Shown here: positions 36 through 25,023 of the stretch, one piece after another
Position numbering within the stretch: position 1 is the first letter of the stretch
Layout of the letters: each line of letters opens with the position of its first letter
Virus record (IMG/VR): IMGVR_UViG_3300034062_000334
Coordinates: 1 to 27,392 of that record
Reading direction: 5' to 3' (one strand)
Length of the DNA: 27,392 bases
Source: a virus
The notes under the pieces: model-generated
What the model saw: the letters and a program-made list of their open reading frames with translations, nothing else
Told to the model about the DNA's origin: nothing
The model's database searches: none
Made by a program: the position numbers and the translations under genes

Positions 36-64
36 TTGACCTATATGTCAAGTTGTGTTATACT
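36..64 (+). promoter_or_regulatory. Sigma70-like promoter for the early operon
   Basis: A -35 box TTGACC (36-41) is separated by exactly 17 bp from a -10 box TATACT (59-64). Both are one base away from consensus. It lies about 85 bp upstream of the first start codon (149) and nothing codes between them, so it should drive the DUF3150/MoxR/vWA operon. Host sigma factor use is inferred from the match alone. The 5' leader would carry the palindromic element at 111-140. It is the best promoter match I see in the window. Confidence 0.75.
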
Positions 65-110: not shown

Positions 111-141
111 CCAGCACTTGCTGGGTTGTTAATTAAAGGAG
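111..141 (+). repeat. Palindromic element copy 1 (leader, overlaps RBS)
   Basis: CCAGC (111-115) and GCTGG (120-124) form a 5-bp stem with loop ACTT. It is followed by a TTGTTAATTAAAGGAG tail whose end is the Shine-Dalgarno site of the gene starting at 149. Copies 3 and 4 have the same layout: hairpin, then TNATTAACTAAAGGGGA-like tail, then ATG. There is no T-tract, so it is not an intrinsic terminator. Because the promoter lies upstream, it would sit in the 5' untranslated leader. A role in translation or mRNA stability is inference. Confidence 0.7.
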
Positions 142-148
142 AGAGAAC

Positions 149-1069
149 ATGAACATGGAATTGCAAAAGCCCAAGCATCTCATCAGCTTGGCATCGAGTG
201 CGGTGTTGGTATCAATCGACACCAATGTGTGGTCGGCAACTAAGCAGGACAGGGGCATCAGCAATGAGGTTTCTGACGCAAAGAAAGCCGTTCGCAACGC
301 GGGCAAGTACACCAAGCATTTGCTCGCAGATCATCCCAAGCACAAGGCGATCGTCAACTATCGTCAGACTATCTATAACTGGACGAAGCGCAGGACATAT
401 CGTTGGAACGATGCAAACGATCTGTTACCAAGCATTGATGTGCCTCGCTTCAAGCAGGAGTTCGGCGAGCATAAGGCGCAGTTCGACAAGTTGGTGGATG
501 AGTTTCTTGCGTCATACAGTTCGATCGTGTCCGACATGGCGTTCAGCGCAGGCGATATGTTCAACCGAAGCGACTACCCAGCAGTGGATGAGTTGCGCCG
601 CAAGTTCGGTGTCGAGTTGTTTGTGAGTGAAGTGCCAAGCAACGACTTTCGCTGTGGCATTGCGAACGATATCGCTGATGATTTGTTTGAGACATACAGC
701 AGACAAGCCGAGAACATAGTGACCGAGGTGATGCTGGCTCAAAAAACAAGGCTCGTCGAAGTCATGCAGTCGATCAGTCATTGTTGCGGTGTGGATGAGC
801 TTGGCGTTGACGACAACACAGGCGAGACCAAGACTCGTAAGCGCAAGATCTATGACACCACTATCCAAAAGGCGTTGGAGATGTGCGAGACATTCAAGGG
901 TTTCAACTTAAACGCTGATCCCGATCTCGAGTTGGCTCGGGCATCGCTTGAGAGAGCATTGTCCGATGTGAGTGCAAGCGACATTCGAGAGAGTGACGCA
1001 GTGCGTTCAAGTGTGAAGGAGGATGTTGACAGCATCCTCAGTAAGTTCAGTTCTTTTCAGTGTGTTTAA
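149..1069 (+). CDS. DUF3150-like protein, partner of MoxR/vWA module
   Basis: 306 residues. The start is fixed by AAGGAG at 136-141, 7 nt upstream. By memory of the family it resembles DUF3150-type proteins of MoxR/vWA gene clusters. The recognisable segments are an N-terminal VSIDTNVW stretch, a tryptophan-containing WNDANDLLPS segment (about residues 80-90), a long helical stretch (about 95-130), then the DMFNRSDYP and LRRKFGVELF segments (about 130-155). It is mostly helical, soluble, and has no signal peptide or membrane segment. No enzymatic motif is visible. It is first in the operon, 15 nt ahead of the AAA+ gene, which fits a substrate-adaptor or regulatory partner of the ATPase; that role is inference. 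Family identity is moderately sure, function unknown. Confidence 0.7.
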   Translation: MNMELQKPKHLISLASSAVLVSIDTNVWSATKQDRGISNEVSDAKKAVRNAGKYTKHLLADHPKHKAIVNYRQTIYNWTKRRTYRWNDANDLLPSIDVPRFKQEFGEHKAQFDKLVDEFLASYSSIVSDMAFSAGDMFNRSDYPAVDELRRKFGVELFVSEVPSNDFRCGIANDIADDLFETYSRQAENIVTEVMLAQKTRLVEVMQSISHCCGVDELGVDDNTGETKTRKRKIYDTTIQKALEMCETFKGFNLNADPDLELARASLERALSDVSASDIRESDAVRSSVKEDVDSILSKFSSFQCV

Positions 1070-1084
1070 TCAAGGAGTAATCAA

Positions 1085-2161
1085 ATGAGCAAAATGAATT
1101 TCACCCCCATGGTATCCATCAGCGAACTACGGAAAATGATTCCGCTAATAGGTTCACAACTGACGCTCGTCATACAGTCCGAGCCTGGGTGTGGCAAGAC
1201 GTCGCTGTTGGGCATGATGGAAGCAGATCATGGCGACAAGTACGACTACATCTATGTGGACTGCCCAGTCAAAGATATGTCGGACATCGGTATGACTATT
1301 CCCAACCATGCAAGCAAGACGCTTGAGTATTACGTTGCGGAGTTGTTCAAGCTCGACAGCGACAAGCCCAAGATGATCTTGCTCGACGAGTTGATGAAGT
1401 CGCCCAAGCTTCTGCAAATTATCTTTACCCGCATGATGTTGGAAAGAATGGTAGGTGACAGGCCACTACCTGCTGGGTCGGTAATCATTGCGACATCGAA
1501 CAATGCCTCGGATGGTGTAGGCGACTCGATGCTTGCTCATGCGGCAAATCGTGTGTGTATCGTGCGGATGGCTAAGCCCACAGCTGATGAGTGGTTGACA
1601 TGGGCAACAGCTAATGGTGTCTCTCGGGTTGTTCGGGCGTTCGTGTCCATGTTCCCTCGGGTGATGGCATCGTACTTGGAAGGCGATAACCAAAAAGATA
1701 ATCCATACATCTTCAAGCCAAGCTCGGGCACGTTGTCGTTCTGTTCGCCTCGTTCATTGGCGAAGTGCGATGTGATCGTGAAGCATCGTGATGTCATGGG
1801 TGAGAACGCAACCATGGTCGCATTGGCAGGCACGATCGGTGCGTCAGCGGCAGGCGATATGGCGGCGTTCATGTCGTTGGAGAAATCATTGACAGATGTT
1901 AAGGACATCGTGAAGAACCCGTTGGGCGTGACCATGCCGACAGACATATCAGCGCAGTTGATGATTATGTTTCAAGCAGTAGATACATTGGCGACACAGG
2001 ATGAGTTGACATCGTTCATGGAGTTCGTCGAGCGTATCCAATCATCCGAGGTGCAAGCGGTGTTCTTCACCATGATGATGCGTAGTCCCAAGGCAGTTCG
2101 TCTTGCTCGTAACAATGCAAAGATCGCTGAGTGGGCTAAGAACAATCACGAATTATTCTAA
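1085..2161 (+). CDS. MoxR-type AAA+ ATPase
   Basis: 358 residues with AAGGAG upstream. Walker A is SEPGCGKTS (32-40), with serine in place of the usual first glycine. Walker B is MILLDE (97-102), and sensor 1 is the IIATSNN stretch (134-140). Length and layout fit MoxR/CobS-like AAA+ proteins, which remodel or insert cofactors into partner proteins and typically pair with a von Willebrand A domain protein; here that partner starts at 2447. The C-terminal third is helical lid sequence without known motifs. Expected to be a soluble hexameric ATPase acting on the vWA protein; that pairing follows from family knowledge and context. The ATPase call is secure, the substrate unknown. Confidence 0.9.
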   Translation: MSKMNFTPMVSISELRKMIPLIGSQLTLVIQSEPGCGKTSLLGMMEADHGDKYDYIYVDCPVKDMSDIGMTIPNHASKTLEYYVAELFKLDSDKPKMILLDELMKSPKLLQIIFTRMMLERMVGDRPLPAGSVIIATSNNASDGVGDSMLAHAANRVCIVRMAKPTADEWLTWATANGVSRVVRAFVSMFPRVMASYLEGDNQKDNPYIFKPSSGTLSFCSPRSLAKCDVIVKHRDVMGENATMVALAGTIGASAAGDMAAFMSLEKSLTDVKDIVKNPLGVTMPTDISAQLMIMFQAVDTLATQDELTSFMEFVERIQSSEVQAVFFTMMMRSPKAVRLARNNAKIAEWAKNNHELF

Positions 2162-2169
2162 GGAGTTGA

Positions 2170-2367
2170 ATGATGATAACCATTACTGAGTTGGAGTTTG
2201 TTTTGTTCATTGCGTTCGGTGTCATGACTGCGATGTGGTTTCGACTGCGAGCCGAGTTGTATATGCACAAGCGTATTACCACAGAGTTGATGACTCGCAT
2301 TGCAAGTGGCAAGATGAAAGTTGTTGAGACTGATGATGGCTTTAACTTTGAGGACATCAAGTCATGA
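2170..2367 (+). CDS. Small single-span membrane protein (65 aa)
   Basis: 65 residues. AAGGAG overlaps the stop codon of the ATPase gene 8 nt earlier, so it is translated in the same operon. Residues about 9-25 form one hydrophobic span (FVLFIAFGVMTAMWF), followed by a positively charged stretch (RLR, HKR) and an acidic soluble tail. By the positive-inside rule the C terminus would be cytoplasmic. It overlaps the next start by ATGA at 2364. I do not recognise a family. Placed between the MoxR ATPase and the vWA protein, it could anchor the complex to the membrane; this is inference. Confidence 0.7.
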   Translation: MMITITELEFVLFIAFGVMTAMWFRLRAELYMHKRITTELMTRIASGKMKVVETDDGFNFEDIKS

Positions 2368-2450
2368 GTGAAGCTAAATGGTTGACTCTCGTCTATGTGT
2401 TGGCGATGGTCGTGATTGTGTTAGATATATTTTATTGGAGAGCAGTATGA
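2364..2450 (+). CDS. 28-aa membrane micropeptide
   Basis: An uninterrupted 28-codon frame starts at the ATGA shared with the upstream stop (2364-2367) and ends at the ATGA shared with the downstream start (2447-2450). Almost the whole peptide is one hydrophobic helix (residues 6-25, WLTLVYVLAMVVIVLDIFYW). Overlap on both sides is the same translational coupling used by proven genes nearby, which is the main reason to accept it. It has no strong ribosome site of its own; coupling from the 65-aa gene is expected. No family is recognised. It may pair with the preceding membrane protein. Confidence 0.6.
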   Translation: MSEAKWLTLVYVLAMVVIVLDIFYWRAV

Positions 2451-3733
2451 GTAAGCAAGAAACACGCGTGAAGAAGGCGCACATTGCGCTGATGAAACAC
2501 CCCGAGACAGCGCTGTATTCGGGCGTGATGTTGATGGGTAAGAGCGAGGTCGTGGACAGTGGATGTCCTACGGCATACACCGATGGTGTCAACAAGGTCT
2601 ATGGTCGCAAGTTCTTGGAGGGTGTGGACTCTGAGCCCAAGGTTCGTGGCTTGATACTGCATGAGAATCTTCATGTGGCGTTGAAGCAATTGCCAAGAGG
2701 TAAGGATATGTTTGAGGAGAATCGCAAGCTCGCAAACATAGCCGCTGACATGGTTGTCAACAACATCATCGAAGATATTAAAGGCACAGTCAATGGTTCG
2801 ACTGAGCGTATCGTGGAGTTACCTGATGGTGGTGTCTATGACTCCATGTTCCGAGACTGGTCGATGCGTGAGGTATACAACTATCTCAAGAAGAACTGCA
2901 AAAGTGGCAAGAAGCCCAAGGGCAACAACAACGGCGGTGGCGGGAAAAGTAACGACCCAGCCGATACTGGGTCGGGAGATAGCGATGATGACGAAGGCAC
3001 TATCACCATCAACGGCAAGACCTATGATCTTTCTGACGCAGACGAACATGATCTAGATAACCTGAAAGACCTGACGCATGAGCAGATCAAGGAAGTCAAC
3101 GATGCGATCGACAAGGCGTTGCGTGAGGGCGGGATGTTGGCGGGTCGCATGGGTGCAAAGATTCCTAGATCAATCTCTGACTTGCTTGAGCCCAAGGTCG
3201 ATTGGCGTGATGCGTTGCGTGAGTTTGTATCGAGCGCCATCAAGGGCAAGGATGAGTTCACTTGGCGCAAGATGAACAAGCGGCATCTCGCTAATGACAT
3301 CTACCTACCAAGCATGGAGAACGAAACGATCGGTGAGGTGGTCATTGCGATCGACACGTCGGGTTCAATCGGTAGCGAGCAGATCACCGAGTTTGCGACA
3401 GAACTGGTCTCTATTTGCGATCTTTGTTCTCCCGAGAAGGTTCGTGTTCTGTGGTGGGATACCGATGTGCATGGTGAGCAAGTCTTTGTAGGCAACTATC
3501 AGGACATCGCTGGTCTACTCAAGCCGATGGGTGGGGGCGGTACTCATGTGTCGTGTGTCAACCACTACATCAACAAAGAGAAGATCAATGCCGAGTGTGT
3601 GATCGTGTTCACTGATGGCTATGTTGAGAGCGACATCGCTTGGACTATTCCTAGCCCAACCCTGTGGATGGTTACCGAGAACAAATCGTTTGAGCCCCCT
3701 GTCGGCAAGAAGGTGAAGTTTGGTGATGACTAA
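2447..3733 (+). CDS. DUF2201-type putative metallopeptidase with vWA domain
   Basis: 428 residues from ATG 2447, chosen because GGAGAG lies just upstream and it overlaps the micropeptide stop by ATGA. An in-frame ATG at 2378 is upstream but would run over that peptide. The N-terminal half carries HENLH (72-76), an HExxH zinc motif. A low-complexity Gly/Asn/Asp linker (about 150-185) follows and includes a palindromic element. The C-terminal half is a von Willebrand A domain with MIDAS motif DTSGS (303-307), a GGTHVS threonine region and FTDGY (D390). The architecture matches DUF2201_N plus vWA-like proteins, which pair with MoxR ATPases. Proteolysis is a prediction from the motif; the partner role is from context. 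Confidence 0.88.
   Translation: MSKQETRVKKAHIALMKHPETALYSGVMLMGKSEVVDSGCPTAYTDGVNKVYGRKFLEGVDSEPKVRGLILHENLHVALKQLPRGKDMFEENRKLANIAADMVVNNIIEDIKGTVNGSTERIVELPDGGVYDSMFRDWSMREVYNYLKKNCKSGKKPKGNNNGGGGKSNDPADTGSGDSDDDEGTITINGKTYDLSDADEHDLDNLKDLTHEQIKEVNDAIDKALREGGMLAGRMGAKIPRSISDLLEPKVDWRDALREFVSSAIKGKDEFTWRKMNKRHLANDIYLPSMENETIGEVVIAIDTSGSIGSEQITEFATELVSICDLCSPEKVRVLWWDTDVHGEQVFVGNYQDIAGLLKPMGGGGTHVSCVNHYINKEKINAECVIVFTDGYVESDIAWTIPSPTLWMVTENKSFEPPVGKKVKFGDD
2954..2980 (+). repeat. Palindromic element copy 2 (inside vWA gene)
   Basis: GACCCAG (2954-2960) and CTGGGTC (2967-2973) form a perfect 7-bp stem with loop CCGATA. The following GGGAGATA matches the tail of copy 5 with two changes. It is translated as DPADTGS within the Gly/Asn/Asp linker of the vWA protein, in the same frame as the coding parts of copies 3 and 5. 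Confidence 0.65.
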
Positions 3734-3983
3734 ATCAATGATATACATTGCAAGCGAGGTTGCATACAAACGCAATGCGATCGAGAGAGATCGTCATCGA
3801 CTATCAAAAGAGTTAGCGCAGGAACTCAGAGATCAGATGGAGGATGGCGCTTATCTCTTTTGCGTAGAGAAACTATCAGGCAACACAGAACAGCCGAAGC
3901 TTTGGCGTGATGTGTTGACATGGCTTACTGAAATTGACACCCCAGCACCCGCTGGGTCATTAACTAAAGGGGAAACAGAATGA
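3726..3983 (+). CDS. Small hypothetical protein (85 aa)
   Basis: 85 residues from ATG 3726. The frame can also be opened at TTG 3720. ATG 3726 is preferred because AAGGTGAAG lies about 10 nt upstream and the gene overlaps the vWA stop by 8 nt. It is charged and helical, with one cysteine and two tryptophans in a KLWRDVLTWL stretch near the end. The last 13 residues (PAPAGSLTKGETE) are written entirely by palindromic element copy 3. It ends in an ATGA overlap with the next gene. Family not recognised. Confidence 0.6.
   Translation: MTKSMIYIASEVAYKRNAIERDRHRLSKELAQELRDQMEDGAYLFCVEKLSGNTEQPKLWRDVLTWLTEIDTPAPAGSLTKGETE
3941..3975 (+). repeat. Palindromic element copy 3 (gene junction)
   Basis: CCCAGC (3941-3946) and GCTGGG (3951-3956) form a 6-bp stem with loop ACCC. 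It is followed by the tail TCATTAACTAAAGGGGAAA, whose AAAGGGGA is the ribosome site for the start at 3980. The same bases code for the C terminus of the preceding 85-residue protein, so the element is both coding and a leader. There is no T-tract. Confidence 0.75.
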
Positions 3984-4957
3984 AGGGTCTTAGCTATGCT
4001 CGTCTTGAGCAGATCACGAAAGTGGAGAAACCATACCGAGGCACTACCGATCGGTATCCTGTGGGCAATCGTAGGCACAACCTCAAGAACTTCTTTGTGC
4101 GAGAGGAGGATGGCGTAAAAGTATTTGATGTGACATACGGCACACGCTTCAAGTCACATTCTCTAACGAAAGAGGAATACGATGAGATGGAATCGGTGGG
4201 CGCAAAAGACATCCACAAATACGACTATGGCGACCGATGGGAATACATGAGATACGAAACATTGCCATTCAGAATCGGCACAGTGTATCCAGCAGGATAC
4301 TTTCAATTCAACGCTGATACCTACTATGGGCAGGGCGATCGCACGTTCTTGAGTGATTGTTCTCATGGATGGTTCTGCAATGATTCACGCAGGGGCGGCA
4401 TGGTGTGGACATTTGGTAATAAGGCTAACTACAGATGTATTCCAATCTTCAAGGGTATGCGTGTCTCGACTGCGGATAACTTTGAAGTGCTTGATGACTA
4501 TGTGGTGGTCGGCAAGAAAGTAAATCGCAAGGTGGGCAAAGATCTTCTTGCAGGATATGAGACTTTCTACAAGACTGCTGAGACCATGTGCAAGGCTATG
4601 TCTAGAGAATTATTTCTTGAGACGGCTAAGGAAATCATTGAGGAGGAACAACGAGACTACAAGAAATTCTTTGAAGAAGCCGAAGCAAGGCGAGATCAAG
4701 CGCCACTTGATGCAATGATTCTCTATGCCATGGCATTGGATGTGGGGAAGATCGAACAACAGATCACACATCCGAATTGGTATCAAGCCGAGCCTCATGA
4801 GATATTTTGCAATCTCAAGCGACACATGAACAAGCGACTCTACAAGGAACATCCCGAGGTGTTCATCCCTGTGCATTACGGCAAGGGCGAGGCGTATCCA
4901 CCAAGCATTTGGGGATATGAAGTCATGGTCAATGGTGAAGTTCAGCAACAGTATTAA
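3980..4957 (+). CDS. Hypothetical protein (325 aa), unrecognised
   Basis: 325 residues starting at an ATGA overlap with the previous stop, with AAAGGGGA 8 nt upstream. It is rich in aromatic residues: an N-terminal half with many Tyr/Trp/Phe and two cysteines (SDCSHGWFC, about residues 121-129), and a C-terminal half with a long charged helix (EEEQRDYKKFFEEAEARR, about 220-240) then HPNWYQ and a basic NLKRHMNKRLYKEH stretch. No signal peptide or membrane span. I recognise no family or catalytic motif. It is bracketed by palindromic elements 3 and 4, a unit shared with the next gene. Confidence 0.75.
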   Translation: MKGLSYARLEQITKVEKPYRGTTDRYPVGNRRHNLKNFFVREEDGVKVFDVTYGTRFKSHSLTKEEYDEMESVGAKDIHKYDYGDRWEYMRYETLPFRIGTVYPAGYFQFNADTYYGQGDRTFLSDCSHGWFCNDSRRGGMVWTFGNKANYRCIPIFKGMRVSTADNFEVLDDYVVVGKKVNRKVGKDLLAGYETFYKTAETMCKAMSRELFLETAKEIIEEEQRDYKKFFEEAEARRDQAPLDAMILYAMALDVGKIEQQITHPNWYQAEPHEIFCNLKRHMNKRLYKEHPEVFIPVHYGKGEAYPPSIWGYEVMVNGEVQQQY

Positions 4958-4962
4958 TCAAC

Positions 4963-5000
4963 GACCCAGCAAGGGCTGGGTCACTAACTAAAAGGGGAAA
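4963..5000 (+). repeat. Palindromic element copy 4 (leader)
   Basis: The best copy: GACCCAGC (4963-4970) and GCTGGGTC (4975-4982) form a perfect 8-bp stem with a 4-nt loop AAGG. The tail is ACTAACTAAAAGGGGAAA, and its AAGGGG is the ribosome site for the ATG at 5004. It fills almost the whole 46-nt gap between two unrecognised genes. The lack of a T-tract argues against an intrinsic terminator. Confidence 0.8.
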
Positions 5001-6862: not shown

Positions 6863-7328
6863 ATCAGCGAAAGTAAGGATGCTGTTGCGTAGGAATCCAA
6901 ACATTAAAGCGAGTGCAGTCATCGAGACGCTTGACTGTACCCTGCAACAAGCTCATGTGATGTTAAACACTCAGAGGAAGAAACTTCACATCTTCAAGAG
7001 AAAAGATGGGGTGTATGTGGCTAAACCTATGATGGATAGACCCACCGTAGTTAAGACCCCAGCCGATGCTGGGTCGTTAGATAAAGTCCCAAGCATCGTA
7101 GAAGAACACTTCCCGATCACAATGCAACCTGACCCAGTGAATCACCCCGAGCATTACAAGGTGGGTGGCATCGAGACTATCGACTTTATCGAGGGAAAGA
7201 ATCTTGGCTATAACCTTGGCAATGCGGTGAAGTACATCAGCAGAGCAGACCACAAGGGCAACAGACTCCAAGACTTACAGAAGGCTCAGTGGTATCTCAA
7301 CAGAGAGATCAACAAAGCACAGGCTTAA
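6855..7328 (+). CDS. DUF3310 protein with N-terminal winged-helix-like region
   Basis: 157 residues. Residues 93-155 match the DUF3310 pattern: DPVNHPEHYKVGG, IETIDFIE, LGNAVKYISRA, HKGN, then KAQWYLNREI. DUF3310 is found in T7 gp1.7-type proteins, linked to nucleotide kinase activity in T7, so a role in nucleotide metabolism is possible. The N-terminal 55 residues look like a small helix-turn-helix region (SAVIETLDCTLQQAHVML). A linker (about 67-77, TPADAGSLDK) between the two parts is written by palindromic element copy 5. It is the last gene before a strong terminator. Confidence 0.85.
   Translation: MNKSAKVRMLLRRNPNIKASAVIETLDCTLQQAHVMLNTQRKKLHIFKRKDGVYVAKPMMDRPTVVKTPADAGSLDKVPSIVEEHFPITMQPDPVNHPEHYKVGGIETIDFIEGKNLGYNLGNAVKYISRADHKGNRLQDLQKAQWYLNREINKAQA
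7055..7085 (+). repeat. Palindromic element copy 5 (inside DUF3310 gene)
   Basis: CCCAGC (7058-7063) and GCTGGG (7068-7073) form a 6-bp stem with loop CGAT, then TCGTTAGATAAAG. The bases CAGCCGATGCTGGGTCG match copy 2 with one change. It is translated as TPADAGSLDK in the linker between the HTH-like region and DUF3310, in the same frame as the other coding copies. Confidence 0.65.
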
Positions 7329-17658: not shown

Positions 17659-17842
17659 GCCGGAGTGGATTTTTCCGTTTAGTTCTATGGAAGTGGGGGA
17701 TAGTTTTTTTATCCCTACCCTCCGTTTCGCTGAGATTATCTATTCCATAGATTGCGGATCAAAACGTGCCGACATCAAGGTGAAGTCTTACATCACAGCC
17801 AAGGATGGGCACATTGGTGTCCGAACTTGGCGTGTTCGTTAA
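17642..17842 (+). CDS. Small conserved-type phage protein (66 aa)
   Basis: 66 residues from ATG 17642, overlapping the primase stop by 17 nt; a TTG at 17639 is also possible. The segment WIFPFSSMEVGDSFFIPTL, then DGHIGVRTWRV at the end, matches a common phage protein family with FPF-x-x-M-x-VGDSFFVP and DG-x-GVRVWR. I believe this is the DUF7303 type but cannot confirm. Probably a small beta-barrel-like accessory protein. It is the last plus-strand gene, and its stop shares TTAA with the stop of the opposing giant gene. Confidence 0.75.
   Translation: MIQLPEPEWIFPFSSMEVGDSFFIPTLRFAEIIYSIDCGSKRADIKVKSYITAKDGHIGVRTWRVR
17839..17842. other. Convergent stop codons sharing TTAA
   Basis: The plus-strand TAA (17840-17842) and the minus-strand TAA (complement of 17839-17841) use the same palindrome TTAA. 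There is no hairpin with T-tract on either strand within about 60 nt, so opposing transcripts probably run into each other or stop further inside the neighbouring gene. Confidence 0.9.
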
Positions 17843-20800
17843 GGCTCAATGTTGTAGCCCTTGAGTCGCTCGATGATCTCATGCTTGAGCATGTTCTGTT
17901 GAAGGATGTTCAGCCGCAGAAACTCTTCTTTGTCAATCGGCGGTATATCCATTACACGTATCTCATTTGCCCGTTTGCGGATCTTGTCAAGTCGCGCCAC
18001 CTGCTGGTTATAAATACTGATGGCGCTCTCCACGCCGGGGTTCTCAGCCCTGAATTCCAATGCGGTAGCCCTATTGGTCTTGTTCAGTGTCTTCAAACGT
18101 GTTTCTAAGTCTTTAACCTTTTCTTGCACCTTGGTGAACTCGCGGGCATCGACGTTCGACTTAGAGCCAAAGAAAGACCCAAGCAGTGCCAGATCAGTCT
18201 TTGGATTAAATCTCTTATCACCCTTAGACAAATCAATCCAGTTGTAAGCCATCTCACCAAGACGGGCTATACCATCAACATAGCTGTTGGTAAGGAAGTA
18301 CATGGTGTTAGGAGAAATATTTCGCTCACCCTTGGTTTTGTCATACAGCCATGCCGCAAAATCTTTATACACCTCGGGAATTCTGTCGCCACCCGTGAAC
18401 GCATCGCCAAACTTACGCTGCGTAGCACTGTTGATTGTCTGACCGATACCGTTCATGTTCATAAGGTATTCAGATACAGGCCGCAACATGGAAGGAACTA
18501 CTGAGTCAAACGCCCACATTAATGGCGATTCAGATGGAGGTATCTTGGAGATGGGGATAGGCAAGAATGAGTCAGTCAGGATTGACCCGAGTATGTTGCC
18601 CATGCCATCTTTAAATGATGTTTGCCCATGAACCATGCCACCGATCTGAGCACCAATCGAAGGGAACGCGCCAAGACCAAAACCCCAAGGTATCTGGATG
18701 ACAACATCCCTGCCCAAACCAACACTGTCAGGGATGTGAAACCGTGCGTTGCGAGTCCATTGCTGCATATTGTCACTGCGCACGCTGTTGCGTTTCCATT
18801 CGTCATCGGGAGCCATCATCATTGCCATTAAATATGCAACATATCCAGAAGCAGTCAACCCAACGACCATGATTTGAGAATTTGTACGCAGCTTCTTAAA
18901 GTTCTTAATGTACTCAGCTTTGGCTTTTGGATCATCTCTAACCACAGCGGGCATATTCTCCTCTGCCCATGAGACGGGAGTAAATGCAGGTGAAGCTGTT
19001 TCAATGGCTCGCGTAGCACTGATTGCAGATGGGCGAATAAACATATATAACCCGCCAAGCTCACGCCCGTAAGTACCAACCTTTTCAAAGTTGGTCAGAT
19101 TCTTTGTCTCAGCAGCGGCTTGTGTGCAGGCTGCTCGTTCGGCAGGTGACATCTCCCCATTCGGGCCTTTGACGTCAGACACGCCGTCCTTTATCTGTTG
19201 CTTGTAGTAGTACTCCTTAAAGATGGAATACGCAGCAGTCCGGCTTGTCAATTCAAACATGCCACTCCATGAGTCAAGAAGCGCGTCAATACTTTCTTTT
19301 GTACTTGCCACCCAATTTTTATTCTTTAACTTACGCAGCTTTTCCGTGTTGTTCTTAATTGAGAAGCTCTCAATATAGGCTGTCTTGCCGCCAAACTTAA
19401 TTAGCTCAAGCATGTCGCGCACAAACGGATCTTTCTTGGCGCTGTTAATCATCAGCTGTTGGCTTTGCTTGTCGCCCTTTTCATTTAAAAGAGCCACTTC
19501 CCATGCTTTGCCCAAACCGTTCTGCAACACACGAGCAGCCATCAAACCAATGTACTTAGGAGCAGACAGCGGCCCCATTTTGCCACCGCCCATGTTCCAA
19601 GCGTTGGTAAACATATCAACAACAAAGTTCTTTGGCGCAAAGTTGATGTTGTATCGGGTGTGCTGCGCACCAATCCAACCTGTGACATCGTTTGCCAAAT
19701 CCCACAGAGGCTTTTCTTCTTTGAATGAGTACCGCACCGCATTCAACAACTTTGGATTGTTAATACGCAATATGTCGATAGACCCATCTTCGTTGTAATG
19801 GAAAATGTTTGCGCCGCCCTTGTACTTTGACAAATCAACAGTTTCACGCGCAGTGAAGGGAATATGCTCAACTATTTCGCCGTCAATAATTCCCGTGCCA
19901 TTTGGATTTAGTTTGCTCTTAGGCAGTGCGTTCTTAATTGACTGTGAAAAGTTACGCCGCCCAGCACGGTCTGCACCTTTGTAAGCATCTGACATGAGTT
20001 GTAGTAATGGGTTGTCAGACACCGCAAAGCGCCCGTGAGTCGCGTGTTCAATTTCTTGTAACGCCTTACCACGGCTTCCTTTTCCAGTCCCTATACGACC
20101 TTGACCCATCGTGTCGGGATCAAGCAAATCTGCCATTGCGGTGTTCTTTGAAACGCCCTTGAATGGCATGTAAAACTGATAGTCATACATACCCGTAACA
20201 TTAGATACAGGGTATGACCAGTAGTTACCAATCTTGTTTAACTCTTTTGTGGCTTTTGCCAAATCTTTGGTTGAGTCAAAAATTTTCATGATGGCGTCTT
20301 GCTGCTCTTGCGGCAACGCATCAAACTGCGTCTTGCGCAGATCTACTTCTTTCTGGTCAATACCTAGCACGTTATACAGCGCGTTCTCTTTCTTGAGTGC
20401 TTGTGCTGAGTTGGGTTTGGTAGGATCAATTTTGATATCACGAGGCGTATACCCTGCTACGTCTGCATAGTTCTCAGCCAGCGATGTGAGTTCGCTCCAG
20501 AGTTGTTTCTGTTGGGCAGCGGTAAGTTCGACCTGATCTTTCAAGCCCGGAATACCTTTGCTGGGGTCACCAAGAATTTGAGTGCGGCGCTCCGCTGCAC
20601 TGATTGGCTTACCGTTCTGCACAAGATTCTTAGTTGTATTCAACGGCACTGCCTGCACCCACAAAGCTGTACGACGTTCTGGCTCATGGAACATCTCAGC
20701 AAACATATGGAAGTCAATTAAGGCATCATCAAATGACTTATCCGCAACTTTCATCCAGTCACCAAACGCCTGCTTTAAATTAGTAAGAGGCTCATCAATA

Positions 20801-23800
20801 TAATGCGTCAAGAATTGCAGCTTCTCGCCAGTTGCCAGCGTCATGTGCTCAGCTATGTTGTTAAACGAGCCACTCATGTCACGCACAATTTTTCCGCCAA
20901 GATCCGCTCTACGCTCAAAGCTGCCAATCTCATAGGTTGTGTCTACAAATGCAGTGGCTTTGTCTCGCCATCCTTGCACCTTGAACAAATCCTTGACCGC
21001 TTTCACAAGTTTGGAACCCGGGTATTCTTTCTCGCTTAGCTTATACGCCTCACGATTTTTAGGATCGTCCATACCACCAACACGAGGCAGCCTTTGACTG
21101 CCCTTACCTTTTGGAACTTTTGGAGCCTTGGCGGGCAAGTCAGTCAAATAGATAGGCTCAGTGGGCACTGAAAGAATGTCTTCAAACGCAGAATTTAACT
21201 CCATCATGAAGTTGTTGGACACCATCTGACCCGGCTTGTAACCAACAATACCTGCAATAGCTTTTTTAAACTCTGACCACATTGACTTCTTGCCGGGCAT
21301 ACGATCAAGGATCTTGTCTTTGCGCAGACCAAAAGCCACGTCTTGAGCGTACTCAACGCCTTCACCTTGCAAATCAACTTGAAAAATTTTGTCAGTCAAA
21401 GCATAAGCAAGAAACTCATATGGGTTGTCATAAGCGTTTGGATGCCGACTTTCTAAAGCACCTTTCGTGCTTTTCATGATTGCCAGAATTTGCTCAACAG
21501 CTTTTATCTGATACTGCGTAAGAAGGTTTTTCTTCCCCGTCAAAAAGAGGTTCATCACCCGTACGCTGGCAGCGTGTACCACTTCGTGCAGAATAGTTGT
21601 ATAGGTCAGGCCTTCAGGCGTCACATAGATTGTGTCTTTGTCGGCTTTGTATATAGCCAGATCACCGTCAGGCAAGCTATCTACAAACTTAATCTGTGTC
21701 TTCAAACCAAGGTTTGCTACTAGCTTGGCGATCTGCTGATAAATTTTTCGGTGCGTGACATCCGCGTTTTTTAATTTTTCGGCAATACCTTTCAACAAAC
21801 CTTCAAGATTGTTATCCTTAGCCAACTGCACAAGGTCGTTGGGTAATTGCTCCGATGCTTTTGGCATTTCACCAGATGTGCTGCTTTGTTTGTCGCGCAG
21901 TTTCTGGTAGTACTCTTGCAACTTCTCAGACTTCTGGCGAACTTCATCCTTAATCTTTTGGATGTTTTTGTTCTGGGCTTGTTTATCTTTAGAAGATATG
22001 TCGCCGTTCTCGCTGATGATCTGTTGTGCAACTTCAGCAAAACCTACATCTTGCTGTAGACCAGAATTGTTTGCTACCGTCCGTAGGTATATGGCTTTTG
22101 CTGCGTTGGATAAATCTCTCCAAGCAGGGAATTTAAACCCATACACTTTTCCTGTGACTTCACGGTTGTCTTCATAACCTTTAATTAAGCGCTGGTCATT
22201 GCGATTAAGAGTGCCTTCACCTTCGCGGCTTTCAATACCTTGCTGGCGACGGAACTCCAAAAGAGCCCTTGCAGCTTCCTCATGTTCTTTTGGCGTGTTG
22301 TTGCGTATCTTGTCTAGATAGACTTCCTTCTCAACAGGCGTGATCTCTTTATCCCAGTTAGGGAGCTTGTTCTTTACTTGTAGATTTTTTTCAGCCTCAA
22401 CAATCTGCGCATCTAATTCATCAATCAACGCCTGATTTACTGGGTCGTCAAGATTCGCATCCTCAAGCTTGACTTCAGCGTCTTCCCGCGCCTTGTAAAG
22501 CTGTTTAATTTTTTCAGCCGAGACGTCACGAGCCTTATTGTGCTCATCAGCAGCGGCGTTTATTTCTTCCCGCTTGGCTTCATAGTTCTCAATGATTGCG
22601 TCATCAACTTTTATGTTGGGTAGGGATTTGCCACGCGATTCTTCAAGCAAGCGTTGCCGTTCTTGCTCTACTCGTTTTTCATATTTATCTGCTAATTTCA
22701 TAGCAGCCCGCACTGCCTCAGGACTTGAGCCTATTATTGGAAAAACAGGTGCGCCGCCTTGAACGCTTGCGCTTGCTTGCAAACCTTGGTCTATCAGTTT
22801 TTGGGTACTTACATAAGGACTGCGTTTTGCAGGCAGGCCGTCAGAAGATGGCTTAAACAGTTCTAACCCATGCTGTTCTTCCAGCCGGTTGAGATAGTTG
22901 AGTTTGTTTTTAATGAGTTTGCCCGCCGCCCCATCTTCGATTAGGTTTAAAACTTCATCACGACGTTTACTAATTTCGTCTTGAGTCTCTTGGCTCAGTG
23001 CAGAGAATTCAGTCTTCGCTCCAGTATCACCTGTAGGGACAGCAGCTCCAGCTCCTCCCACACCTCCGGGTTGATTGACTGAAGCTCTGGGGGCATTGGC
23101 TGTAGTATTGGCTGCTGCATCCACGCCAGCGCCTGCTCCACTTGGTGCATTGTCAGTTCCACTTGGTGCTCCTTGTCGGCTTGTTTGCTCTTGATTACGA
23201 AGACCAAGAATAGTTTCTATCTCCCAAGTAGCTAAACCGCCACGGCTATTAGCAAAATTAAGTTCGTAGAGTATGCGCTCAGGAGTTCTATCCGGCACAC
23301 TCAATACTTCTCCAGCGCGTTGCAGAGCTTCTGGGGTTGTCAATGCACTCATAGGCACAGGCTGTCTAGTCCCGTCCTGAACTTGCATAGCAGGTTCGCC
23401 CTCTTGTGCTACGGGCAATTGAGGTTTTACTGACGCAGGTTGCGCCGCTGCCGCAGGAGGTGTAGCCGCAGGAACAGATTGCGTTGGTGCTCCTTGTCCG
23501 AGATGAGCCTTGATTGCTTCAATTGCTCGTGCATTAAATCCTTCGCCAGCAGGCACATCAAGACCCAGTTCTTTAACTAGATTCTTTGCCTTAAATGTAT
23601 TTGGCTTACCTTCATCTATGTACGCTTGCGCCTTAGCCAACGCATCAGTAGACGCTGGAGGTGTAGTCGCAGGAGGTGTAGTCGCAGGAGGTGTAGCGCC
23701 CGACGACGTTGCTGCATTAATTAAGTCAAGCTGTTCCTGTGTAGCTTGTGGAGCGCCTGCCTTTATGTCGTCACTTGCAGTAGTGAACAAGTCTTTGTAG

Positions 23801-25023
23801 TCTTGGCCTGCGCTTTGATCCGTAGCTGCTTCGCGTTTGGCTGTGTAACCTTCCCGTGCGCCAGCAGCCGCGCCCATACCAAAACCTGCCGCACCTTCCA
23901 TAGTGCCTTGACTGACAACACCACGCATTGTGGGTACATCAAAGCCCTCGCGTTGCAACGCAATATTTTGCGCCATTTGTTCTTGCGCACCTTGCGGGAA
24001 TTCGGTTGCAAACTCTTTACCCGCCGTTATAACGCCTTGTTTGACAACGCCTCGTTCCGCTGCAAGCGCCGTTTCTCTTGCCGTAACTTCTTTAACCGCA
24101 GCTTTGGCGGCTTCTCTACCCGTTGTTTGTGTAGCAACGGTAGCGGCAGCTTGTTCTGCTGTGGTTCGCCCAATAATATCTTTTGCCAGCTGCCGGGCAA
24201 TAACAGGCTCCACACCTGTTCTAGCTCCAACTACGCCAATTGCCGATGCAAGCAAAATCTGATCTAAGTTCTTGCCACCATACTCTTGCGCCTTGACCGC
24301 AGCGGCTTCAATTTGGTCGGGCGTCATCTTGGTCTTTTCAGCCAAGACTTGTTTGGTGGCATCATAGATCGCGCTCTTGGCAGTGCCCGCGCCCATGATT
24401 GCGCCTGTACCAAGCGTAAGCCCTGTAGCTACCAGCGGCGCACCGCCAGTAACCAAAGTAACTAAGCCAGCAAGAATAGCGGGGGCAGCAGTACCTAAAG
24501 AGTTAGAAATAACATCAACAGGCGCAACAGACATTGCCTTAATACCCGCTGTCACCTGATCCAGAATGCCTTTATCTTCCGCCTCTTTCATGATGCGGGC
24601 AATTTCTTTGCTGTCTTTCTTGGACTGAGCGCTGTACAAAGCAGCTATCTCATCTTCTACACCACGAAGACTTTTAGACACACCACTATCTGCACCAAAC
24701 GCATCGGCAATTAAGCGTACACCTGTAACAGCACCAGCCCCTACCTTAAGAGGCACGTCGGCAAACTGACGAAGAACACTTTGGTCTTGCGGTCTTGGTT
24801 CAGGCGCTTTTGCAGTCTGACCGGGAATTTGGTCAACAGCGCTTCTACCATCTATAGGTGGCGTAGCAGCTTTAACAGTTAAGGGCATCCACTCGTTTTT
24901 TATCAACCCAAACTTTTCCCCTGTATCAGGATTACTAGCCGTTTTAGAAAAAGGAACCCACTCGTTATCAATCAACGCGAAGCGTTCCCCTGTATCAGGA
25001 TTGGTAGCAGTTTGGAGTGCCAT
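17839..25023 (-). CDS. Giant polyvalent virion-type protein with HExxH peptidase motif and LPD38-like C terminus
   Basis: 2394 residues. The N terminus has two tandem 23-residue repeats (NPDTGE-R/K-F...LI-x-NEW-x-P; residues 8-24 and 31-47). A hydrophobic Ala/Gly-rich stretch follows (about 176-215), then Pro/Thr-rich linkers (ATTPP repeats near 440) and long coiled coils (about 750-1100). HEVVH is at 1146-1150 with a possible third zinc ligand at Glu1203 (NPYEFLAYAL). The C-terminal region has the look of large polyvalent protein domain LPD38 (LGLGRDVVIQIPWG-like and MLRPVSEYLMN segments). Such proteins are packaged and ejected into the host. The ribosome site is weak; translation is coupled, 2 nt after the upstream stop. 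Confidence 0.85.
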   Translation of the reverse strand: MALQTATNPDTGERFALIDNEWVPFSKTASNPDTGEKFGLIKNEWMPLTVKAATPPIDGRSAVDQIPGQTAKAPEPRPQDQSVLRQFADVPLKVGAGAVTGVRLIADAFGADSGVSKSLRGVEDEIAALYSAQSKKDSKEIARIMKEAEDKGILDQVTAGIKAMSVAPVDVISNSLGTAAPAILAGLVTLVTGGAPLVATGLTLGTGAIMGAGTAKSAIYDATKQVLAEKTKMTPDQIEAAAVKAQEYGGKNLDQILLASAIGVVGARTGVEPVIARQLAKDIIGRTTAEQAAATVATQTTGREAAKAAVKEVTARETALAAERGVVKQGVITAGKEFATEFPQGAQEQMAQNIALQREGFDVPTMRGVVSQGTMEGAAGFGMGAAAGAREGYTAKREAATDQSAGQDYKDLFTTASDDIKAGAPQATQEQLDLINAATSSGATPPATTPPATTPPASTDALAKAQAYIDEGKPNTFKAKNLVKELGLDVPAGEGFNARAIEAIKAHLGQGAPTQSVPAATPPAAAAQPASVKPQLPVAQEGEPAMQVQDGTRQPVPMSALTTPEALQRAGEVLSVPDRTPERILYELNFANSRGGLATWEIETILGLRNQEQTSRQGAPSGTDNAPSGAGAGVDAAANTTANAPRASVNQPGGVGGAGAAVPTGDTGAKTEFSALSQETQDEISKRRDEVLNLIEDGAAGKLIKNKLNYLNRLEEQHGLELFKPSSDGLPAKRSPYVSTQKLIDQGLQASASVQGGAPVFPIIGSSPEAVRAAMKLADKYEKRVEQERQRLLEESRGKSLPNIKVDDAIIENYEAKREEINAAADEHNKARDVSAEKIKQLYKAREDAEVKLEDANLDDPVNQALIDELDAQIVEAEKNLQVKNKLPNWDKEITPVEKEVYLDKIRNNTPKEHEEAARALLEFRRQQGIESREGEGTLNRNDQRLIKGYEDNREVTGKVYGFKFPAWRDLSNAAKAIYLRTVANNSGLQQDVGFAEVAQQIISENGDISSKDKQAQNKNIQKIKDEVRQKSEKLQEYYQKLRDKQSSTSGEMPKASEQLPNDLVQLAKDNNLEGLLKGIAEKLKNADVTHRKIYQQIAKLVANLGLKTQIKFVDSLPDGDLAIYKADKDTIYVTPEGLTYTTILHEVVHAASVRVMNLFLTGKKNLLTQYQIKAVEQILAIMKSTKGALESRHPNAYDNPYEFLAYALTDKIFQVDLQGEGVEYAQDVAFGLRKDKILDRMPGKKSMWSEFKKAIAGIVGYKPGQMVSNNFMMELNSAFEDILSVPTEPIYLTDLPAKAPKVPKGKGSQRLPRVGGMDDPKNREAYKLSEKEYPGSKLVKAVKDLFKVQGWRDKATAFVDTTYEIGSFERRADLGGKIVRDMSGSFNNIAEHMTLATGEKLQFLTHYIDEPLTNLKQAFGDWMKVADKSFDDALIDFHMFAEMFHEPERRTALWVQAVPLNTTKNLVQNGKPISAAERRTQILGDPSKGIPGLKDQVELTAAQQKQLWSELTSLAENYADVAGYTPRDIKIDPTKPNSAQALKKENALYNVLGIDQKEVDLRKTQFDALPQEQQDAIMKIFDSTKDLAKATKELNKIGNYWSYPVSNVTGMYDYQFYMPFKGVSKNTAMADLLDPDTMGQGRIGTGKGSRGKALQEIEHATHGRFAVSDNPLLQLMSDAYKGADRAGRRNFSQSIKNALPKSKLNPNGTGIIDGEIVEHIPFTARETVDLSKYKGGANIFHYNEDGSIDILRINNPKLLNAVRYSFKEEKPLWDLANDVTGWIGAQHTRYNINFAPKNFVVDMFTNAWNMGGGKMGPLSAPKYIGLMAARVLQNGLGKAWEVALLNEKGDKQSQQLMINSAKKDPFVRDMLELIKFGGKTAYIESFSIKNNTEKLRKLKNKNWVASTKESIDALLDSWSGMFELTSRTAAYSIFKEYYYKQQIKDGVSDVKGPNGEMSPAERAACTQAAAETKNLTNFEKVGTYGRELGGLYMFIRPSAISATRAIETASPAFTPVSWAEENMPAVVRDDPKAKAEYIKNFKKLRTNSQIMVVGLTASGYVAYLMAMMMAPDDEWKRNSVRSDNMQQWTRNARFHIPDSVGLGRDVVIQIPWGFGLGAFPSIGAQIGGMVHGQTSFKDGMGNILGSILTDSFLPIPISKIPPSESPLMWAFDSVVPSMLRPVSEYLMNMNGIGQTINSATQRKFGDAFTGGDRIPEVYKDFAAWLYDKTKGERNISPNTMYFLTNSYVDGIARLGEMAYNWIDLSKGDKRFNPKTDLALLGSFFGSKSNVDAREFTKVQEKVKDLETRLKTLNKTNRATALEFRAENPGVESAISIYNQQVARLDKIRKRANEIRVMDIPPIDKEEFLRLNILQQNMLKHEIIERLKGYNIEP
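23657..23701 (-). repeat. 15-bp tandem repeat encoding Ala-Thr-Thr-Pro-Pro units
   Basis: GGAGGTGTAGTCGCA occurs twice in a row (23657-23671, 23672-23686) and a third partial copy follows (23687-23701, ending GCGCCC). On the minus strand it writes Ala-Thr-Thr-Pro-Pro in a linker of the giant protein. Such repeats are prone to copy-number change by slippage. Confidence 0.85.

Follow-up and report, generated by a model that had tools for sequence, protein, structure and literature searches.

A DUF3150-like gene accompanies MoxR-class ATPase and vWA genes in a conserved phage module and on plasmids

MoxR-class AAA+ ATPases and their partners with a von Willebrand factor A (vWA) domain are found in cells and in phages. 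The cellular systems NorQ-NorD and CbbQ-CbbO activate enzymes. In the structures of NorQ-NorD the vWA protein is inserted into the MoxR ring, and its metal ion-dependent adhesion site (MIDAS) binds the target (PMC9976466, PMC13036017). The phage pair is known as gp24/gp25 of Escherichia phage N4 and is core in Schitoviridae (PMC7650795), and in the group 2.2 jumbo phages it is a two-part chaperone-cochaperone with an N-terminal metallopeptidase, for which a role in virion assembly has been proposed, with no third subunit described in the passage concerned (PMC7824862). The papers searched contained no functional study of MoxR-vWA proteins in a phage, and the open-access papers among them made no mention of DUF3150. 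In this work we focused on a 27,392-base virus record from IMG/VR (IMGVR_UViG_3300034062_000334), referred to as a whole as the window, in which three long co-directional open reading frames (ORFs) at positions 149-3733 of the + strand encode a DUF3150-like protein (P0001), a predicted MoxR-class ATPase (P0002) and a DUF2201 protein with putative metallopeptidase and vWA halves (P0003). The ATPase-vWA pair is thus already known; the third gene seems unreported. Our main new point is that DUF3150 accompanies AAA+/vWA pairs of two kinds.

P0003 passed the Pfam cut-offs of both PF13203 (87.2 vs 23.2 bits) and PF09967 (58.9 vs 26.4 bits). Its HExxH motif at residues 72-76 was present in 60/60 aligned sequences, with a conservation of 1.00 for H72, E73, H76, D303, S305 and S307 and of 0.98 for T366 and D390, and the vWA half carries a full MIDAS (DxSxS-T-D). 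Judged from this intact motif, the N-terminal HExxH domain is a putative metallopeptidase. The vWA profile of the family matched N4 gp25 at 7.1e-59. We rejected 'HNH endonuclease', the PHROG name of phrog_1314, since the members of this group, N4 gp25 included, score as DUF2201.

P0002 was assigned to the phrog_1297 ATPases (6.7e-52). No Pfam AAA model, AAA_3 and AAA_5 included, scored above its cut-off, and N4 gp24 narrowly misses the Pfam AAA cut-off as well (20.4 vs 22). The family profile nevertheless matched N4 gp24, which was fetched after the profile had been built, at 2.8e-66, and the best sequence-profile match of the P0002 relatives was Midasin. The Walker A (GxGK) and Walker B (LLDE) motifs are kept together with the sensor and arginine residues, and G35, G37, K38, D101, E102, N139, R156 and R223 are 0.97-1.00 conserved in an alignment of 60 sequences. 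The predicted model matched NorQ using Foldseek (2.5e-7) and, using VIA-align, CbbQ2 (Z 11.9, root-mean-square deviation 3.9, 225 aligned residues) and NorQ (Z 11.7-11.8), with ClpB chains (Z 11.2) tied within 1 of both. It also has a beta hairpin at residues 71-82, between beta2 and beta3, in what is the helix-2 insert position as judged without superposition. According to its model P0002 is a MoxR-class AAA+ protein, with NorQ and CbbQ as the best solved-structure matches. These matches and the intact MIDAS agree with the chaperone-like MoxR-vWA class proposed in an earlier reading of the DNA made without database searches (the sequence-only reading).

The third protein, P0001, found no family at ordinary thresholds in Pfam and PHROG searches and stayed below the PF11348 cut-off (10.1 vs 24.9 bits, E 0.48); Pfam reveals nothing besides this weak DUF3150 signal, no search aimed at VMAP, the third component of the vWA-MoxR-VMAP ternary conflict systems (PMC7159879), having been made. 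A diverged viral homologue (L095) reached 19.6 bits with PF11348, and a homologue from a bacterial contig (L109), which aligns to the phage P0001 family at 2e-45, exceeded the cut-off (27.1 vs 24.9 bits). Comparison of the phage family with five canonical DUF3150 proteins plus that of plasmid pRA1 using hhalign gave 96.6% and 6e-10, and the best viral (BFVD) match of the predicted structure (predicted local distance difference test score 83) was a protein named DUF3150 (1.4e-17). Because the diverged homologue, L109, the profile-profile comparison and the structure all agree, we call P0001 DUF3150-like: it is a distant relative that lies outside the family by Pfam's own rule. Its fold class is left unclaimed, since Foldseek found no match in the PDB under E 0.001 and VIA-align returned only generic helical-bundle matches (Z <=8.5, residues 172-306). 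Two candidate relatives were discarded. Mycobacteriophage Dylan gp94 adjoins an AAA ATPase, but its structural match is weak (1.4e-3) and lacks sequence support, and that ATPase is a classical AAA protein. A sub-threshold PF11348 match in G370 stands without an AAA+ or vWA gene beside it and probably arose by chance.

The family names of the sequence-only reading therefore held to different degrees: DUF2201 by both Pfam cut-offs, MoxR by phrog_1297 and structure but not by the Pfam AAA cut-offs, and DUF3150 by homologue and profile-profile comparison but not by the protein's own score. The residues that it had singled out for mutation, H72/E73 of P0003 and K38 of P0002, were rightly chosen, being 98-100% conserved in the 60-sequence alignments.

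The linkage of the three genes was examined in 38 IMG/VR loci found with P0001 and in a second set of loci found independently with the DNA polymerase. The trio was complete, in the order DUF-MoxR-vWA, in 34 of the 38 loci, and the other 4 end inside the module at contig ends. In the polymerase-anchored set it was present wherever the contig extends far enough and was never seen missing; the one apparent exception (L094) is a contig whose edge cuts through the vWA gene and leaves just its end. The order is MoxR-vWA-DUF in one clade and MoxR-DUF-vWA in one record and in Synechococcus phage MinM2, so that the linkage is maintained across three gene orders. MinM2 resembles the window in having MoxR, DUF3150 and VWA genes all within 4.5 kb, but differs by its gene order, by small ORFs interrupting the group and by an identity of only ~23-24%. 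Sequence identities of the trio track those of the polymerase, exonuclease and helicase and, in distant relatives, exceed those of the two genes immediately downstream. The ratio of nonsynonymous to synonymous substitution rates (dN/dS) is 0.07-0.18, near the values of the replication genes, and the distance matrices of the three genes show correlations of 0.98-0.99 with one another and with that of the polymerase; the module has therefore been passed on together with the genome instead of being swapped in. In its lineage the trio is a core gene set, vertically inherited and under purifying selection.

Beyond this lineage, 686 phage records contain a vWA homologue and 424 an ATPase homologue, including N4-like, Vequintavirinae, jumbo and cyanophage genomes. 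DUF3150-like genes were found in far fewer phages than the pair, and neither N4 (1-32 kb) nor Roseobacter phage CRP-7 (gp16) nor Rhizobium phage TM27B (ORF 056) gave a match. N4 has the homologous ATPase and DUF2201 vWA genes, in the same order and ahead of the replication genes, but other direct neighbours. As side observations, the 'putative anti-sigma factor' gene of Escherichia phage nomo, a Vequintavirus (L045:1-319), overlaps a weak match to the vWA profile (1.7e-4) and may encode the missing vWA partner, located on a divergent unit, and the layout of a listed E. coli plasmid (L122, CP057073.1) resembles that of a Vequintavirus-type phage genome and not that of a plasmid.

Among plasmids, 42 records matched a diverged DUF3150-like protein and 51 matched P0003, with nearly equal genus tallies. 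The trio is present on ~42 plasmids, most of them from Burkholderiales, and Rhodovastum plasmids are also represented. In the plasmid loci examined the ATPase, DUF-like and vWA genes are grouped, in one case near type IV secretion system genes. A pair of another kind was found with canonical DUF3150. One stretch of the IncA plasmid pRA1 encodes a CobS/CbbQ-like AAA+ protein, Bet, Exo, a canonical DUF3150 and a CobT-like vWA protein; this AAA+ protein matches CobS at 8e-30, below the CobS cut-off. When 398 sampled Pseudomonadota genomes were surveyed using the PF11348 cut-off, 9 contained a DUF3150 gene. At the seven of these loci examined with longer flanks a CobT-like vWA gene lay within ~7 kb in 7/7 and a CobS-like AAA+ gene in 6/7, and Bet and Exo stood beside DUF3150 in 3/7. 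The three-part logic of pRA1 and similar Bet/Exo islands, DUF3150 included, is that of the phage module, but their AAA+ and vWA proteins belong to other subfamilies and gave no DUF2201 metallopeptidase match. They were rejected as direct homologues of the phage pair, the similarity being at superfamily level only.

The features of the locus are listed in Table 1. The three genes lie where the sequence-only reading had described them, except that the conserved start of the vWA gene is at 2447 and not at 2378, where ORF calling had put it, and that two small ORFs had been left out. ORFs similar to the larger of these (61-67 amino acids) are present in many close relatives and absent from the more distant loci checked, and the smaller one, with the same sequence motif, is present in the closest relatives only. 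Downstream of the module lie genes for a VRR-NUC-like protein (a weak match), DUF3310 and a family A DNA polymerase, followed by a PD-(D/E)XK exonuclease, an SNF2-type helicase and a DUF927 primase-like protein. Elsewhere in the window (17839-25023, - strand) a 2,394-amino-acid protein with an LPD38 domain has no PHROG match; its neighbour, on the strand opposite to the module, resembles phage DNA-ejection proteins.

Table 1. Coordinates of promoter, leader and coding features at the start of the window (aa, amino acids).
Feature	Position	Strand	Remarks
Sigma-70-type early promoter TTGACCTATATGTCAAGTTGTGTTATACT	36..64	+	10/12 consensus, TG ahead of -10
5' leader hairpin CCAGC-ACTT-GCTGG	111..124	+	Between promoter and ribosome-binding site
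DUF3150-like protein (P0001), 306 aa	149..1069	+	PF11348, profile-profile comparison and predicted structure
Predicted MoxR-class AAA+ ATPase (P0002), 358 aa	1085..2161	+	phrog_1297, N4 gp24 homologue
65-aa ORF	2170..2367	+	One predicted membrane span; separates ATPase and vWA genes
28-aa ORF	2364..2450	+	One predicted membrane span; overlaps start codon of vWA gene
Putative DUF2201_N metallopeptidase + DUF2201 vWA protein (P0003), 428 aa	2447..3733	+	phrog_1314, N4 gp25 homologue

The promoter has the layout TTGACC-N17-TATACT. Its exact consensus TTGACNNATANGTNAAGTTNTGNTATACT occurs once in the window and in none of the shuffled sequences. Promoter-like sites in general are not enriched (16 vs 22 in shuffles), and the promoter score alone therefore proves nothing. 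The 29-nucleotide site was found at the equivalent position, upstream of the P0001 gene, in nearly all relatives: the promoter noticed in the sequence-only reading is real and conserved. The claim that it drives the first operon was not confirmed: in most relatives whose upstream sequence is long enough, a second copy lies a further 1.0-2.9 kb upstream and precedes a series of small ORFs. The module is thus probably the second early unit, and its place as first operon probably reflects the edge of the window. A palindrome, TTGAC-N6-GTCAA, spans the -35 element and is a possible operator. Two near-identical early promoters with this internal palindrome were seen in one relative (L009:3214 and L009:5888), with similar pairs in others, and the palindrome is possibly an operator shared by both for a phage regulator. 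Between promoter and start codon, 24/25 leaders contain a hairpin of 5-7 pairs and varying sequence at -38 to -54 from the start codon, with a mean stem of 5.6 vs 3.0 in shuffles. Within the window itself a 44-nucleotide leader element, CCCAGC-N4-GCTGGG followed by a TTAA-TAAAGG-like stretch, recurs at 101-144, 3932-3975, 4956-4999 and 7049-7092 (4 pattern matches vs 0.04 expected), three copies lying immediately ahead of the start codons at 149, 3980 and 5004.

We tentatively favour, at a little short of an even chance, the reading that the trio forms an early-expressed, three-component, ATP-driven protein-remodelling machine, whose target would most likely be a complex on the element's own DNA, in replication or recombination. 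The assembly of the complex, the part played in it by DUF3150 and its target are what we infer here. The MoxR-class protein would most likely form a hexameric ring, on which the DUF2201 protein would dock by its vWA half, using the MIDAS metal to grip the target, which ATP hydrolysis would then pull or twist. The N-terminal HExxH domain might serve as a clipper or as a second binding arm, and the DUF3150-like protein would be a dedicated third subunit, probably an adaptor selecting the target or coupling it to the ring. Every residue required by the NorQ-NorD scheme, ring and MIDAS, is 97-100% conserved in the phage proteins. In phages the module lies before the genes for polymerase, exonuclease, helicase and primase, and its rate of evolution is similar to theirs. 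Several points weigh against this reading. In most phages that carry the pair no DUF3150 was seen, and since N4 (first 32 kb) is among these, the protein is not required everywhere. The position of the module is weak evidence for a replication target, because replication genes abound in the early regions of phages, and the CobS/CobT-type pair found with canonical DUF3150 resembles the phage pair at superfamily level only, with weak cross-matches.

A role in counter-defence or host takeover, in which the early complex would dismantle or cleave a complex of the host's defence or regulation, seems unlikely to us. The early-type promoter, the intact HExxH and the presence of the module on lytic phages and conjugative plasmids, both of which face host defences, fit such a role, and bacterial conflict systems use MoxR-vWA cores (PMC7159879). 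Against this, P0001-P0003 matched no PADLOC model (E 0.01), and a core, slow-evolving trio, vertically inherited and never seen missing in its lineage, is unlike anti-defence genes, which usually are patchy in distribution and evolve fast. Anti-defence was accordingly rejected as the default reading, and the earlier suggestion of an action on anti-phage complexes found no support; the core trio in the relatives together with the trios on conjugative plasmids makes a housekeeping role in starting mobile DNA likelier than an anti-defence protease.

We consider it less probable again that the trio is a virion-assembly chaperone with proteolytic maturation, as Iyer and colleagues propose for jumbo phages; their proposal concerns the same MoxR and metallopeptidase-vWA pair and draws the analogy with an archaeal virus tail-assembly MoxR-vWA system (PMC7824862). 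Virulent phage families have the pair among their core genes (PMC7650795), and in cyanophage S-TIM61 it has a gene for a virion structural protein nearby, but the window module sits behind a host-type early promoter in the company of replication genes, and as a sole role virion assembly is disfavoured because the trio is also on plasmids, which make no virions. Very improbable is a chaperone of the CobN-CobST or NorQD kind, which would insert metal into, or activate, a phage or host metalloenzyme. The closest solved homologues activate metalloenzymes or rubisco and the AAA+ protein of pRA1 resembles CobS, yet no conserved partner metalloenzyme gene was seen adjoining the module in the phages and plasmids examined, and NorQ-NorD and CbbQ-CbbO, although they share a vWA partner and the best solved folds for P0002, have neither DUF3150 nor the DUF2201 peptidase half. 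A DNA-replication or recombination complex is thus, we infer, a more likely target of the remodelling machine than a defence complex or a virion.

More tentatively than for the machine itself, DUF3150 may be the shared third subunit of unrecognised AAA+/vWA machines, built on two types of pair, which would establish or recombine incoming mobile DNA in lytic phages, conjugative plasmids and integrative elements. Genes of the N4 gp24/gp25 type belong to the core of a large phage family, and annotation still gives them as unknown or, wrongly, as HNH endonuclease. The constant third partner across lytic phages and conjugative plasmids offers a concrete complex for purification, and the plasmid copies narrow the possible targets, virion assembly alone being insufficient as an explanation.

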